DNA of 45,188 nucleotides from a bacterium UBP8_UBA817 (GCA_945898045.1 CAMDGG010000003.1:74529-119716), one strand, 5' to 3'; counted from the first letter of the stretch, positions 10,703-19,396 are shown. Numbers and translations: made by a program. Notes: a model not told the origin generated them from the letters alone.

Positions 10703-12481
<1,779 letters not shown>

Positions 12482-12524
12482 GGATTAAAACCTTTCTTAG
12501 AAAGGTACAACAAGAACATCGGCC

Positions 12525-12560
12525 GCCTAAAGGCTTTGGTATCCCTCAAAGCCTTTAGGC
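12525..12560. repeat. 14-bp perfect inverted repeat with 8-nt loop
   Basis: GCCTAAAGGCTTTG-GTATCCCT-CAAAGCCTTTAGGC between convergent thiC and the collar operon; a second smaller hairpin ACCTTTC-TTA-GAAAGGT lies around 12490-12506. Confidence 0.85.
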
Positions 12561-12643
12561 CATGCCAAGATCAGTATCTGAAGCATTCCTATTAAGTCAA
12601 ATGAGGTCCAAGTTCTAAAGCCTCAATTCAAAACTTTAAATAA

Positions 12644-13501
12644 TTAAGGGGTTACCCCATAAAAAATACAATAATTCACGCTTTGATTAACCGGACGAGT
12701 TTCATTGGCAACGACCGGATTCCCAAAGGTGGTAGTTGACGGGCCTTGGATAGTTAAGTAAGTGGAATCAATCGCTGTACTACTGGCAGTTGCGTCAACA
12801 AAACTCGTGTTAGTTTGACTTGGAATACTTGCAAAGCCAACGCCAATGCCAGATAGGCCAGACAGGTATCGAGGACCTCCTGTGTTTATAACCAAACTAG
12901 TTCCATTGGTAAGTGAGTGCGTATGGGGAGACATAGTGTAAGGGTGTGTATGTGATCCATTTGACAGATCATGGCTATGATTTTGAAAGGCATCATCTTG
13001 GTAGGTCCCGACACTGACCATAGGAGAGGCCCCCCGTAAAAAAATCCCTCTCATATCTGGTATAACCATCGTTCCTACATATTGATCTTGTGCATCTAGA
13101 GATAAGGTGCCGCCCCAGGTAGTTCCAATCCGTTTTGCAAGTCGCTGCAAGTAAGAATTTGGAGTTACTGTAAGTGTTCTTCCATCGCAAGGCATCCATC
13201 CCGCGTGAATACTGGTTGTTGGAATAGCAAATGCCGCAATAGTTCCAACCAACAACTTATCTATAAAGCCAGACGACCCCCCAGACAAGACATCATCCAC
13301 CACTACACCATTTGACAATTGAAACAACTTCACGGACTGAACATAATTGTCGGTTGCTGAGGATTGATCCGCGGGAACCTGCCACCCAGCATGATTTGTA
13401 AATATGATTGCTTTTTTATTAAAAGAGACTGCAAAAAGGGGTGCGGTTCCGATAAGTAAGAGACAAAGAAAAAAAGAGAGACGAAGAAAAATATTTTTCA
13501 T
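12644..13501 (-). CDS. Secreted phage-tail-collar-domain protein (copy 1)
   Basis: Signal peptide; IHAGWMPCDGRTL, MVIPDMRGIFLRGA, HSHDLSNGSHTHPYTMSPHTHS, NETRPVNQSVNYCIFY. Confidence 0.8.
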   Translation of the reverse strand: MKNIFLRLSFFLCLLLIGTAPLFAVSFNKKAIIFTNHAGWQVPADQSSATDNYVQSVKLFQLSNGVVVDDVLSGGSSGFIDKLLVGTIAAFAIPTTSIHAGWMPCDGRTLTVTPNSYLQRLAKRIGTTWGGTLSLDAQDQYVGTMVIPDMRGIFLRGASPMVSVGTYQDDAFQNHSHDLSNGSHTHPYTMSPHTHSLTNGTSLVINTGGPRYLSGLSGIGVGFASIPSQTNTSFVDATASSTAIDSTYLTIQGPSTTTFGNPVVANETRPVNQSVNYCIFYGVTP

Positions 13502-13503
13502 GA

Positions 13504-14289
13504 TTAGTACCTTATATAATATGCAACAGCATTATTTTTAGGGCGAGTTTCTGAAGCGTATTTCGGACTTCCAAAAGTGGAATATGTGGCGGGATTGGTG
13601 AGCGTTACGCCTCCGGATGAACTTGCTACTGTAAGAGCTGGAGTAGTAGAGGTGAGTGATAAATTAATATCGGTTGAGTTATAGCCTAAACTTCCACCGG
13701 AAGCATTAGTAAAATTATTAGCACCAAAATGGTGGCCAGGTGAATTTGAGACGCCCGTTCCATGCGGATGCGCAACGTTAGTAACAGTATGGGGGTGGGC
13801 CGTTTCGGACACACTATGGGCATGCCCTTGCAGGTGATCAACGTAGAAGGTGCCAAAAGCGGTGCTCGTAGATTTCCCACTTATAAATCGTCCTCGCAAA
13901 TCGGGAACGGCAAAGGTTGTCGGGCTATTACCGCCATATAAGTTACCAATTTTAAAGAAAAGTAATGCTAATTCTGGATGATTTGCAAGTGTATAAATAG
14001 TTCCGTCACATAATAACCATCCGTGTGGAATAGGATTTAGCGTATAAGCAAACGCTTGGATCGCGCCACAAAAAGACCCTACACCCAAAATATCATCTAA
14101 ATCAAGACCCCCCACAGTCATAGTCCGCGTTAGGGATTGGACGGATGGAGATACCAGATCCACTGTATTGGCATGAACTCCACTACCATTGTCAAAAACA
14201 AACGCATCTCTCTCAAAATAATGCTCGGTGGCAGCATGTGTAACGCCGTGGGACAAAAGAATAATTGATAAAACTAAGTAGTATTTCAA
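13504..14289 (-). CDS. Secreted phage-tail-collar-domain protein (copy 2)
   Basis: Signal peptide; IPHGWLLCDGTIYTLANHPELALLFFKIGNLYGGNSPTTFAVPDLRGRFISG; HAHSVSETAHPHTVTNVAHPHG; SETRPKNNAVAYYIRY. Confidence 0.85.
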   Translation of the reverse strand: MKYYLVLSIILLSHGVTHAATEHYFERDAFVFDNGSGVHANTVDLVSPSVQSLTRTMTVGGLDLDDILGVGSFCGAIQAFAYTLNPIPHGWLLCDGTIYTLANHPELALLFFKIGNLYGGNSPTTFAVPDLRGRFISGKSTSTAFGTFYVDHLQGHAHSVSETAHPHTVTNVAHPHGTGVSNSPGHHFGANNFTNASGGSLGYNSTDINLSLTSTTPALTVASSSGGVTLTNPATYSTFGSPKYASETRPKNNAVAYYIRY

Positions 14290-14298
14290 GCCATGCTC

Positions 14299-15150
14299 CT
14301 AATATTTAATGTAGTAAGCCATAACTAAATGTGAAGGAACCGTATCTGTACTCACTCTGATAGCTGGAGTACCACTACTAGTGCTTGCATCACCTAACGT
14401 GGTACCACTTGACGCGCTTGTGAGCTCAACATTGGTATTGCGCGAATCAACTTGAAGGGCACCTGAATTTAATGAGTCATCGCCACCGGCTACCCCATTT
14501 GAACCGCTAACCGAAAGCACATTACCAGAATAGCTATACGAGTGGGTATGTCCGCTGTCCGTTATCGTATGGCTATGTGCTACAGACGTAAATGCATGGG
14601 TATGACCTTGCATGGCAAATCCTTGAGGGGATCCAAGTGTGCGTGTGGCAGTATCTGGATCTCGATTTGCAGCACCTTGTGGTGTTCTCATATTGTCTTG
14701 TCCCCGTAAAAAATAAGCTCGATAGTCTGGAACCGCAAAAGTTGTGGTGCCATTACCTCCATATCGTAAACCAAGTGCGGCCCCAAGCGTTGGATAAGAG
14801 GCAATGTTGTAGACCGTTCCATCACACAAAAGCCATCTGCCAGAACGAGCATTAGAGTGGGCAAAAGGCATAACCATACCGACACAATAGGAATTAATCA
14901 TAGATTCAATTTGGACAGCATGATCATCTACAATGAGTCCATTTTGTAATTTTATTTTGGAAGTTGCTCGGATAAAGGGTGCGCTATTTTGTATTTCTGT
15001 ATTCCCTGTCGCAGATCTCCATCCGGTCCCATTATTAAACTGAATGAGATTGTGGGTAAAAAAACTTTCTGAATTTGCAGCGAGAGAAAAAATAGGGGAA
15101 GAAAAAGAAAAATATAAAAAGATGATAAAAATATAAAAATAGTTCTTCAT
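14299..15150 (-). CDS. Secreted phage-tail-collar-domain protein (copy 3)
   Basis: Signal peptide; GRWLLCDGTVYNIASYPTLGAALGLRYGGNGTTTFAVPDYRAYFLRGQD; HTHAFTSVAHSHTITDSGHTHS; SHLVMAYYIKY. Confidence 0.83.
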   Translation of the reverse strand: MKNYFYIFIIFLYFSFSSPIFSLAANSESFFTHNLIQFNNGTGWRSATGNTEIQNSAPFIRATSKIKLQNGLIVDDHAVQIESMINSYCVGMVMPFAHSNARSGRWLLCDGTVYNIASYPTLGAALGLRYGGNGTTTFAVPDYRAYFLRGQDNMRTPQGAANRDPDTATRTLGSPQGFAMQGHTHAFTSVAHSHTITDSGHTHSYSYSGNVLSVSGSNGVAGGDDSLNSGALQVDSRNTNVELTSASSGTTLGDASTSSGTPAIRVSTDTVPSHLVMAYYIKY

Positions 15151-16973
15151 GCAAGAGAATAATCGGAATCCAATGATTCCGAAGTAAACAACAGGTCAAG
15201 CTCATTTTTTAAATCCAGCAATTCTGTTTTCATAGTTTCGCGGTATTTCTCGGTTTCAAGTTTCAGCTTAGGAATTAACTCTTTGTAATACGCAATGCCA
15301 TCATTTAAATTTTGTTTGAAAAACTCAAAATATTCCACTTGTTTTGGAGTAGGAGAGGGCAGTGTTTTTTTGATTTCATTTGCCAAATAATCGATATACA
15401 TTTTAAGCTCACTAATGAAAAAATTGGGACGATAAGTGTCATTCAATAAGTTGCCGCGACCATAAATATGTCCCGCCATTTCGGCCAATGTGCTGATCTT
15501 AGAAAAGTAAGCCAGGTTAGGGCCAGGGCATACCGCTGATTTCAACGGACGCTTATTATCAATCCCATATGCAATCAAAGCCCCTGCCGCCAAATCTTCG
15601 CATAGACAAGACTTGCCAACCACATAATCAAACCGATTCTTATACGTTTTTGCATCCAAGCCATTGCTATCCAATTCTTTTAACTTCCGTTTTTCATAGG
15701 TCGTCGCTGCCGTGCAAATAGGAACTTTTGTAAATTCCATATTGCTCACCAAATGTCCTTTCGGACATGGGCTCCCAGGTTTTCCTGCTTCAACACGTTC
15801 AAATTTCTGTGCTTCACTGTCGGTATCGCGAAGTGTATTGAAAGGGACTCCCAAGGGAGAAACTTCACTCAAATACAAGTCTTCTTTTTGGGCTGAAGCT
15901 AATTTCTGGCGTGTTGGGTAATCCAAGGTGGTGACCTCAGGAACCAATAGAAAGGGTGTTGCCCAACCTGTGCCCTGTACCTGATAGTGATCCATCAAAA
16001 ATTGATTTTCTGAGGCCGTACCAATACCGCCTTGCACGGTAATATCCATCGCAGGAGTGTTTTGGAATTTAGGCAGCGTTTTTTTGTCTAATGCCTCATT
16101 GCAAATATCCATAAATGTCTGTAAAAGTTCCGAACGTTTTTGCCTAAATTCTTCCAAAATAGGGCCCAATAAAAAGCCGTCAGAAGCAAACGCATGCCCA
16201 CCACAATTAAGGCCCGATTCAATCCGATGCTCAGAAACCCAAATACCTTTCTTTGCCAAAAACTTCCCTTGTGTCAAAGAAGAGCGAACATCCGATACTT
16301 TTAAAATAATTTTCTTTGTAATGTAGCCCAAAGCGTCTGGGAAAAAATCCCGAAACTGCTCAATATATGCATAAAGACGACGGTTAAATCCAGCAGAAAA
16401 AACAATAGACGAATGCAGCTTACTCATTGCATAACCACGAAGGGCAGCAGACGCATCTGAATCATGATCAGGCAGAGGATTTCCTTCTCTATCACGATTG
16501 CTACGATCCAACTTGGTCATGATATTTACGTCCAATGACCCAGCCTGAATCGCGTCACGAAGTTTCGCGTCCAGAGACGCTTTAAGTGTTGCATCGGTTG
16601 TAGACAAGAACTGCAAATATTGTTTTTTTAAGGGGGAAGAATCAGCAAGGAGTTCAAAATATTTGGTTAATTCATTACCTAGTTCAAACGGTAAGGTTTT
16701 AATCGTCTTAACCTGTTCTTCAACAATATCGTGTACCAAATCCAAATAGGCAGTGATTCGTCTTGCGCGGTAATCCGGATCCCATTTTTTAATAAGCTCA
16801 TAAGGTTTGTGATGTAACTCAGAATAATATTTGCGCATATTTTCGCACAGCTCATCATCACCAATAGACATGACAGACGAAATGCCAAATCGAGCCACTT
16901 TTATAGGCGTATCGATCGTAAAAGCAGTCCCCATTACTGGGATATGAAAACTATGAATGCGTTTGATAACCAT
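15147..16973 (-). CDS. Conserved protein of uncertain function, possibly NPD-like/TIM-barrel flavoprotein, Cys-rich C-terminus
   Basis: About 608 aa; SGLNCGGHAFASDGFLLGPILEEF, MDITVQGGIGTASENQFLMDHYQVQGTGWATPFLLVPEVT, GKPGSPCPKGHLVSNMEFTKVPICTA, KSCLCEDLAAGAL, AVCPGPNLAYFSK; stop overlaps the start of collar copy 3 (ATGA). Confidence 0.6.
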   Translation of the reverse strand: MVIKRIHSFHIPVMGTAFTIDTPIKVARFGISSVMSIGDDELCENMRKYYSELHHKPYELIKKWDPDYRARRITAYLDLVHDIVEEQVKTIKTLPFELGNELTKYFELLADSSPLKKQYLQFLSTTDATLKASLDAKLRDAIQAGSLDVNIMTKLDRSNRDREGNPLPDHDSDASAALRGYAMSKLHSSIVFSAGFNRRLYAYIEQFRDFFPDALGYITKKIILKVSDVRSSLTQGKFLAKKGIWVSEHRIESGLNCGGHAFASDGFLLGPILEEFRQKRSELLQTFMDICNEALDKKTLPKFQNTPAMDITVQGGIGTASENQFLMDHYQVQGTGWATPFLLVPEVTTLDYPTRQKLASAQKEDLYLSEVSPLGVPFNTLRDTDSEAQKFERVEAGKPGSPCPKGHLVSNMEFTKVPICTAATTYEKRKLKELDSNGLDAKTYKNRFDYVVGKSCLCEDLAAGALIAYGIDNKRPLKSAVCPGPNLAYFSKISTLAEMAGHIYGRGNLLNDTYRPNFFISELKMYIDYLANEIKKTLPSPTPKQVEYFEFFKQNLNDGIAYYKELIPKLKLETEKYRETMKTELLDLKNELDLLFTSESLDSDYSLA

Positions 16974-17042
16974 AAGCCTCAAATTGTAATATAGAAAAAA
17001 GGCTTTGTACACAATCCGGCTCTCTTGATAGAATCACTCTCT

Positions 17043-18134
17043 ATGACAAAAATTAACTATGATCAATGGGTACAAAAAAGTCTCGCAGCAGAGCGATTTA
17101 ATCAAGAAGAATGCCGAACTATCTTAGATAGCCAAGAGATAGAAATTCTGCCTCTCCTTCAAGCCGCTTATACAGTAAGAAAAGCCCAATGGGGCAACAG
17201 TGTTAATATCCACATCATCAACAACGCCAAAAATGGCAACTGTCCAGAAGACTGTGCCTATTGTGTACAGGCCAAAACATCCAAAACACAAATTGCAGAC
17301 TATCCTATTAAAACAGACGACGAAATCATGGCAGAAGCCAAAAATGCCTATGAGTCTGGGGCCTTTCGTTATTGCATGGTTTTCGCAGGAAGAGGCCCTA
17401 CAAAACAAAGAGTTGAAAAACTTTCGGGACTCATCCAAAAAATTAAATCCACCTATCCTATACAAGTCTGCCTCTCTCCCGGTCTCCTCGATCAAGAAGG
17501 CACAGACATGCTAAAAGCAGCCGGGCTAGACAGACTCAATCACAATCTCAATACGTCCGAACGTTATTACCCAGAAATTTGTGACACCCATACATTTCAA
17601 GATCGTTTAAACACTCTACAAGCAGCCAAAAATTCTGGTATCGAGCTTTGTACTGGCATGATTGCAGGATTAGGTGAACAATCAGACGATATTATTCAGG
17701 TAGCCCAAAAACTACGTGATGTAGAAGCGCAATCTATTCCTATTAATTTTTATATGGCCATCGACGGCAATCGTCTGGGGCCAAAACATGATCTAACGCC
17801 TGAGCGTTGTTTGCGAATTTTATGCCTCTTTAGATTTATTAATCCAAAGTCAGAACTTCGCATGGCTGCAGGCAGAGAAATGCATCTCAGAAGTATGCAG
17901 GTCATGGGACTCTATCCAGCCAACTCACTCTTTATGGATGGTTACCTCAACACAAAAGGAACCAATCACGCGCAAACTCTACAAATGATCAAAGACGCCG
18001 GCTTCGACATTCAGTCCGAACACAATCTAGAAGACCTTCTAGAAAAAGCCAACGAAAAAAATCTTCCTGAAATAAACAATGGCGAAAAAGCCATTATGAA
18101 AAGCATAGAAGATCTAAGGCCCGCTAGAGCATAG
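17043..18134 (+). CDS. bioB: Biotin synthase
   Basis: NGNCPEDCAYCVQAK radical-SAM CxxxCxxC motif; LNHNLNTSERYYPEI; MAAGREMHLR; FMDGYLNTKG. Confidence 0.97.
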   Translation: MTKINYDQWVQKSLAAERFNQEECRTILDSQEIEILPLLQAAYTVRKAQWGNSVNIHIINNAKNGNCPEDCAYCVQAKTSKTQIADYPIKTDDEIMAEAKNAYESGAFRYCMVFAGRGPTKQRVEKLSGLIQKIKSTYPIQVCLSPGLLDQEGTDMLKAAGLDRLNHNLNTSERYYPEICDTHTFQDRLNTLQAAKNSGIELCTGMIAGLGEQSDDIIQVAQKLRDVEAQSIPINFYMAIDGNRLGPKHDLTPERCLRILCLFRFINPKSELRMAAGREMHLRSMQVMGLYPANSLFMDGYLNTKGTNHAQTLQMIKDAGFDIQSEHNLEDLLEKANEKNLPEINNGEKAIMKSIEDLRPARA

Positions 18135-18179: not shown

Positions 18180-18794
18180 TTAACTATTAAAATTCTTAAG
18201 CGCTTCCGCCCAATTCACAACATTCCAAAATGCACTCACATAATCAGGACGACGATTTTGGTAATTCAAATAATACGCATGTTCCCAAACATCCAATCCT
18301 AATACAGGCGTGCCCTTAACATCCGCATTGTCCATAATAGGATTATCTTGATTTGGGGTAGAGCTCACAACCAACGATCCGTCAGCCTTTTTAACGAGCC
18401 ATGCCCAGCCGCTACCAAATCGAGTCTTCGCAGCCGTTTCAAACTGATCTTTAAACGCTTGAAAACTTCCGAATGACGCGTTGATTGCATCTGCAAGTGC
18501 GCCAGTAGGTTCGCCACCAGCTTTAGGTCCAATCACTTTCCAAAAGAAAGAGTGGTTATAGTGTCCGCCACCGTTATTCCGTACAGTCATACGAATAGCT
18601 TCTGGTACTTGAGACAAAGCGCCTAAAATATCTTCGATTTTTTTGTTTTCAAAATCAGTGCCTTGAATCGCAGTATTCAAATTGGTGATATACGCTTGGT
18701 GATGTTTGCCGTGATGAATCTCCATTGTTTTTGCGTCAATATGAGGTTCAAGTGCTGCTGTATCATATGAAAGAGCCGGTAATTCAAATGCCAT
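18180..18794 (-). CDS. Fe/Mn superoxide dismutase
   Basis: [76 protein letters not shown]. Confidence 0.97.
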
Positions 18795-18808: not shown

Positions 18809-19396
18809 TTAGTTTTTGAAATAAGTAGCAAGCCCAGCAGAATCAGGTTTCATAGCTTTGTCACCTTCATGCCAGTTAGCAGGGCACACTTCACCATTCT
18901 TCTCTGTAAACTGCAGCGCATCTACCATGCGAAGAACTTCATCCACACTACGACCCAGTGGCAAATCATTTACCACTTGATGACGTACGATTCCTTTTTG
19001 GTCGATCAAGAAAAGTCCGCGATACGCAGCGCCCAAGTCCTCTTTGAGAACATCATAACTACGACTAATGTCTTTATTAAAATCAGATAAGATCGGATAC
19101 GTCACGCCTTGAATACCACCCAAAGCCTTAGGTGTATTGAGCCATGCAGCATGGGAAAACCATGAATCCACAGAGCATCCAATCACTTGTACATTGCGTT
19201 TTTCAAAATCAGCTAATTTTTCTTGGAATGCATGTAATTCAGTCGGACACACAAACGTAAAATCAAGCGGATAAAAAAAGAGCACAACATATTTGCCTCT
19301 AAGACTTTGGAGTGAATATCCCTCTTTAACTTCTCCGCCATTTACAACGGCTTTAACACTAAAATCTGGAGCTTCTTTGCCTACTAAAACGCCCAT
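18809..19396 (-). CDS. 2-Cys peroxiredoxin (AhpC/Prx1 type)
   Basis: [22 protein letters not shown] (peroxidatic Cys), [15 protein letters not shown] (resolving Cys). Confidence 0.95.

Follow-up and report, generated by a model that had tools for sequence, protein, structure and literature searches.

A secreted three-subunit collar module in an operon with a predicted FabX-fold flavoenzyme gene of a UBP8_UBA817 bacterium

Do a flavoenzyme and three secreted proteins of the phage-tail-collar type work together when their genes share an operon? The question is raised by a locus at positions 12644–16973 of the window, the whole 45,188-nt stretch of UBP8_UBA817 DNA analysed here (GCA_945898045.1 CAMDGG010000003.1:74529-119716). 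The window belongs to a 1.24 Mb assembly of 28 contigs (G000), and among the relatives compared with it are MAGs named UBP8_UBA817 and bins from Saanich Inlet (SI072). The first-pass annotation described a cellular system that exports needle-like trimers and requires the enzyme to do so. The flavoenzyme fold and the secreted, cellular nature of the collar proteins stand, and the functional coupling between the two does not. The interesting part of the locus is the secreted three-subunit collar module, not its coupling with the enzyme. It is fairly probable that two unrelated things share one transcript: a housekeeping FabX-fold flavoenzyme and a self-contained heterotrimeric collar-needle module. 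This reading draws on gene structure, conservation of the module, orthology of its subunits, the number of HxH sites, the predicted fold of the enzyme, and its conserved neighbours.

ORF calling places four genes on the minus strand, in the order 608-residue protein, c1, c2, and c3. The gene of the 608-residue protein spans positions 15147–16973 and starts with an ATG at 16973. Its TGA overlaps the ATG of c1 in the sequence ATGA (15147–15150), and the intergenic gaps are 9 bp between c1 and c2 and 2 bp between c2 and c3, confirming the arrangement and the protein size originally given. The collar proteins c1 (14299–15150), c2 (13504–14289, with a TTG start), and c3 (12644–13501) have 283, 261, and 285 residues, respectively. 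An intergenic stretch (12482–12643) separates c3 from the convergent thiC gene (10721–12481, plus strand) and contains a hairpin-like inverted repeat, CTAAAGGCTTTG...CAAAGCCTTTAG, which probably acts as a shared terminator. On the other side, the operon is flanked by bioB (17025–18134, plus strand) and by genes for an Fe/Mn superoxide dismutase (18180–18794) and an AhpC-type peroxiredoxin (18809–19396), both on the minus strand. A search of the whole window revealed no phage gene besides the collars, as had been noticed at the start; the remainder is ordinary bacterial chromosome.

Each collar protein has a hydrophobic N-terminal signal peptide (about residues 1–24 in c1, 1–19 in c2, and 1–24 in c3), which is separated from the collar domain by about 55–70 residues. 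The signal peptides, called by a simple rule and not by a dedicated predictor, are followed by plausible signal-peptidase sites in all three proteins, in agreement with the first description. No transmembrane segment follows the N-terminal hydrophobic stretch in c1, c2, or c3. The PF07484 collar domain scores above the cutoff in every case, at 14710–14880 in c1 (E = 2.9e-18), 13882–14067 in c2 (E = 1.2e-16), and 13040–13246 in c3 (E = 2.4e-8), and the PHROG matches are to tail-fibre families. Three HxH motifs are present at a spacing of nine residues, at residues 183, 192, and 201 in c1 (14542–14604), 156, 165, and 174 in c2 (13762–13824), and 175, 184, and 193 in c3 (12917–12979). Shuffling gives an expectation of 0.1–0.6 HxH per protein. 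In phage T4 gp37, metals in the needle are coordinated by motifs of this kind.

The phage tail collar, or short tail fibre (PF07484; T4 gp12 type), shares this domain and, behind it, needle-like sequence rich in HxH motifs. The secreted collars differ from it in three respects. First, only they carry a signal peptide and an N-terminal stretch of about 50–60 residues with an FxNGSGW-like motif. The alignments of c2 with the listed phage and plasmid records begin at residue 54 or later, with the exception of Microbacterium phages (from residue 26), so the N-terminal stretch is absent from most of these matches. Second, they have no phage neighbourhood. Third, a complete locus contains three different paralogues.

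The same genome carries a second triplet of signal-peptide collars on contig C4, and complete triplets are also found in two relatives, G001 and G014. Fragments are present in two more: in G015, the first collar gene ends one contig while the tail of the third collar and two HTTM genes end another, and in G012, two collar genes lie at a contig end. The number of genes at complete loci is always three. No phage genes surround any of these other triplets. The collars thus lie outside any prophage both in the window and in relatives, where a recognisable prophage would have spoken against a cellular role.

The subunits of different loci fall into classes. Best hits between C4 and G001 pair position by position, with E-values of 2e-41, 4e-40, and 4e-36 for the first, second, and third proteins, whereas neighbours within the C4 locus match far more weakly (1e-13 to 1e-16). 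Judged by sequence, positions 1, 2, and 3 of these two loci are orthologous and are designated alpha, beta, and gamma; G014 follows the pattern less clearly. The window triplet has one member of each class in a rotated order (c1 gamma, c2 alpha, and c3 beta), with moderate support. Branch supports between the classes are likewise moderate, and the placement of c2 and of the second G014 protein is weak. The assignment in the window is less secure than in the other triplets because c1–c2 and c2–c3 match each other about as well as, or better than, the same proteins match those of other loci. Orthologous secreted triplets are kept across two families and across genera, in different cellular contexts. 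Three HxH-type sites are found in all subunits; in three beta subunits, one of the sites is one or two residues wider. The triplets fall into two subtypes. Tight spacing, with about nine residues from one motif to the next, is seen in the window triplet and G012; neither has an HTTM gene close by, and the G012 genome gives no HTTM match at all. C4, G001, and G014 have more widely separated motifs, with a pair of membrane proteins encoded downstream.

Three conserved paralogues with matching HxH sites suggest a secreted, metal-threaded heterotrimeric needle. The alpha, beta, and gamma subunits would exit through Sec and would most likely fold into one heterotrimeric collar-plus-needle, in which HxH pairs from the three chains build three stacked sites, presumably for metals. 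The needle may serve attachment at the cell surface.

It is possible, although we hold this view only tentatively, that each collar protein instead forms a separate homotrimeric adhesin and that the three make up a diversified array. Phage collar fibres are typically homotrimers, which favours this reading. The MAT fibres of Bdellovibrio, which are trimeric adhesins, function as a repertoire (PMC10769870). Like the window collars, MATs are phage-fibre-like proteins with signal peptides that are used by the cell. However, MATs form long beta-helical fibres, and an S74 chaperone is present in 13 of the 21, whereas the window collars are short and come in fixed threes. A comparison of lengths also sets the conserved domain of about 130 residues that follows the signal peptide in MATs against the shorter stretch that precedes the collar domain here. 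An array would vary in number, but complete loci always hold three genes whose classes are kept across genera, and the presence of three HxH-type sites in every chain also argues against independent fibres.

The collar module has a recurrent partner at other loci. Two genes encoding membrane proteins with HTTM (PF05090) or VKGC-lumenal (PF22777) domains lie directly downstream of the triplets at C4, G001, G014, and G015. The second HTTM protein of G014 matches GGCX, the human vitamin K-dependent gamma-carboxylase, with an E-value of 1.4e-23. In each pair, one protein keeps the YNNH/FNNH and GxxK motifs, which hold the equivalents of His160 and Lys218, and the partner lacks both. Lys218 and His160 are essential in GGCX (PMC9146348). 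The collar-linked HTTM proteins align with GGCX but, unlike GGCX and bacterial HTTM proteins, come as a pair with one degenerate member. The triplet and the pair follow lnt at C4 and rpoN in G001, and lie by murG/bioB in G014; a linkage kept in such different chromosomal contexts argues for a function of the pairing. Seven genomes contain a VKGC-lumenal domain, and in four of them it is encoded beside a collar triplet. In the other three, the gene adjoins those of two large secreted proteins whose N-terminal motif is similar (G005), lies two genes from a 2,733-residue tail-fibre-like protein (G018), or has nothing similar adjoining it (G011). Plasmid HTTM relatives have no collar neighbour in the annotated Bernardetia and Paracoccus records; the Persicobacter record is unannotated.

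The window locus lacks the HTTM/VKGC-lumenal pair and is a variant copy of the secreted three-subunit module without it. Where the pair is present, the GGCX-like enzyme and its degenerate partner may modify the subunits after export. A more far-reaching proposal, which we regard as rather unlikely, is that the module is a surface organelle. Its secreted needle would assemble only from all three collar proteins, and a GGCX-like enzyme made of two membrane proteins would modify them once exported, possibly by gamma-carboxylation of Glu for Ca2+ binding. On this proposal, the window triplet is a second copy without the enzyme, which either does not need it or is served by it in trans. The orthologous subunits, the constant number of three, and the linked enzyme make a heterotrimeric needle modified after export a testable idea. 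If true, a bacterial relative of vitamin K carboxylase would gain a candidate for its natural substrate. No description of the pairing of collar triplets with a GGCX-like pair was found in the open-access literature.

Several features were observed around the membrane pair. On contig C4 (48745–53263; L040 8745–13263), the triplet is followed first by the degenerate protein and then by the HTTM/GGCX-like protein that bears the catalytic residues, and the first HTTM ORF is apparently truncated at its N terminus. Large proteins with a low-complexity stretch and one likely transmembrane helix adjoin the HTTM genes at L040 13266–15359, L071 13599–18084, and L123 6976–9090. In some of them, a Tyr-rich tail carries NPxY/DPxY-like motifs (ENPVY, DNPY, SNPTY, and EDPVY), which are unusual for bacteria.

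The distribution of the 608-residue protein is quite different from that of the collars. Its gene is present in 22 of the 27 genomes of its class, the window's own included. Outside the class, 2 of 47 genomes of the phylum have it, and no relative was found in the viral contigs and plasmids searched. In one MAG (G018, contig C386:2244-4039), several in-frame stops interrupt the homologue, reflecting either a pseudogene or an assembly error. AhpC, SodB, BioB, and ThiC genes recur around it in the 19 neighbourhoods examined. Enzyme and collars were expected to co-occur in related genomes, and no conserved co-occurrence was found: a collar gene lies beside the 608-residue gene in 1 of the 19 neighbourhoods, that of the window itself. 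This speaks against the proposal that the enzyme is coupled to, or required for, the collars.

In six relatives, thiC and the 608-residue gene are convergent with nothing between them, at distances of 21 (G003), 55 (G012), 64 (G022), 70 (G024), 92 (G006), and 185 bp (G005). In the window, this junction is occupied by 2.6 kb of collar genes, which can therefore be regarded as an insertion. Two relatives carry other ORFs at the same place, of 589 residues in G001 and 519 residues in G015 (equivalent loci L042 and L041). The junction thus accepts insertions, and the shared operon is probably incidental. The collar module would have inserted between the 608-residue gene and thiC. No convincing direct repeats, mobile signature, or sharp change in GC content was found at the insertion site. 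G002, of the same genus, gave a weak, partial bioB hit and no match for thiC or the 608-residue gene, and so is unusable as an empty-site control.

A single functional system of flavoenzyme and collars, in which making or exporting the needles depends on the enzyme, is in our view highly improbable. Translational coupling through the overlapping ATGA and the gaps of 9 and 2 bp are the arguments for it, and transcription of the four genes may truly be coupled despite the lack of conservation. On the other hand, the adjacency is unique to this genome, many genomes have the enzyme without collars, and the other triplets lie away from it, most of them beside HTTM/vitamin-K-carboxylase-like proteins.

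What, then, is the housekeeping enzyme? Sequence searches place the 608-residue protein in no Pfam or PDB family, and those against the PDB returned chance hits only. The NMO family (PF03060) is not among the Pfam hits listed at E ≤ 10 for 24 family members, and hhalign against three NMO proteins gave a weak probability of 1.9. An AlphaFold model from 24 sequences reached a pLDDT of 87.5 and a pTM of 0.89, superseding a model from five sequences (pLDDT 59.9). It displays the TIM-barrel fold of the NMO family; in a PDB fold search the top four matches are FabX structures (E = 3.6e-9 to 1.6e-7, probability 1.00), followed by nitronate monooxygenases. The predicted fold is thus of the nitronate monooxygenase/FabX type, which bears out the NPD-like flavoenzyme proposed in the first-pass annotation. 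Homology with NMO rests on this fold, because the profile match is weak and the Pfam hit is absent. The five motifs first quoted for the protein all lie in strongly conserved columns of the 24-sequence alignment, in which SGxNCGGH (with H259 in SGLNCGGH) and QGG are invariant. In the C-terminal part, C402 and C419 are invariant and C455, C457, and C481 nearly so.

The best fold match is H. pylori FabX (PDB 7e1q), an NMO-family decanoyl-ACP dehydrogenase/isomerase with FMN and [4Fe-4S] that produces unsaturated fatty acids and gives off superoxide (PMC8626469). The two proteins are predicted to share the TIM-barrel flavoenzyme fold, with FMN as cofactor, and a Cys-rich C-terminal part. The GGH motif is comparable to the region of the catalytic H182 of FabX. 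However, the cysteine spacing is unlike that of the FabX cluster ligands (C300, C304, C308, and C320), the 608-residue protein has a large helical insertion after the first strand, FabX has about 366 residues, and no sequence-family membership is detectable. The protein is named FabX-fold, not FabX, because of the insertion, the cysteine spacing, the weak NMO profile match, and cofactors and substrate that are only predicted. FabA is above the cutoff in none of 26 class genomes, which is consistent with a FabX-like role but is not proof of it; a desaturase is present in one of the 26. The enzyme would dehydrogenate an acyl substrate and pass electrons to O2, yielding superoxide or H2O2 that the neighbouring superoxide dismutase and peroxiredoxin would remove. 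Since FabX releases superoxide, these neighbours fit such production. The position of this class-wide FabX-fold enzyme beside superoxide dismutase and peroxiredoxin suggests that a poorly known lineage has a lipid enzyme that produces superoxide.

Collar triplets outside phage genomes are not confined to the secreted type. They recur in several bacterial phyla as three anonymous 'tail fiber protein' genes, and no described function was found in the open-access literature, nor a relevant description of secreted collar proteins or collar–HTTM pairs. Plasmids of Spirosoma, Paenibacillus, Deinococcus, Azospirillum, and Sinorhizobium carry tandem triplets of 164–188 residues without a signal peptide, and two copies are annotated in D. 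gobiensis. Like the secreted triplets, these MdpB-like proteins are three tandem paralogues, but they begin directly with the collar domain and have no HTTM protein annotated nearby. A GNAT gene is nearby in several, and lasso-peptide-type genes are near two. The triplets on plasmids of Azospirillum oryzae (L134) and Deinococcus sp. QL22 (L133) lie near genes of the lasso-peptide-type B2/PqqD, asparagine-synthetase-like, and 2OG-Fe(II) oxygenase kinds, a neighbourhood that hints at the modification of peptides. The other plasmid collar hits examined are inside phage tail modules.

Least probable of all is that the window collars are decayed prophage tail genes left after phage loss, as their PF07484 and PHROG tail-fibre matches might indicate, because they are three intact ORFs with signal peptides, their orthologous triplets are conserved in two families and in different cellular contexts with phage genes absent around every copy, most phage and plasmid matches lack their N-terminal stretch, and secreted collars form a clade separate from the non-secreted triplets with a support of 1.000. 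In addition, runs of proteins of about 900–3,150 residues were observed in other class members (L075 5721–15662, L076 15–14091, and L124 3–18317). These proteins are large and fibre-like, and several end in HxH-rich sequence with partial collar matches.
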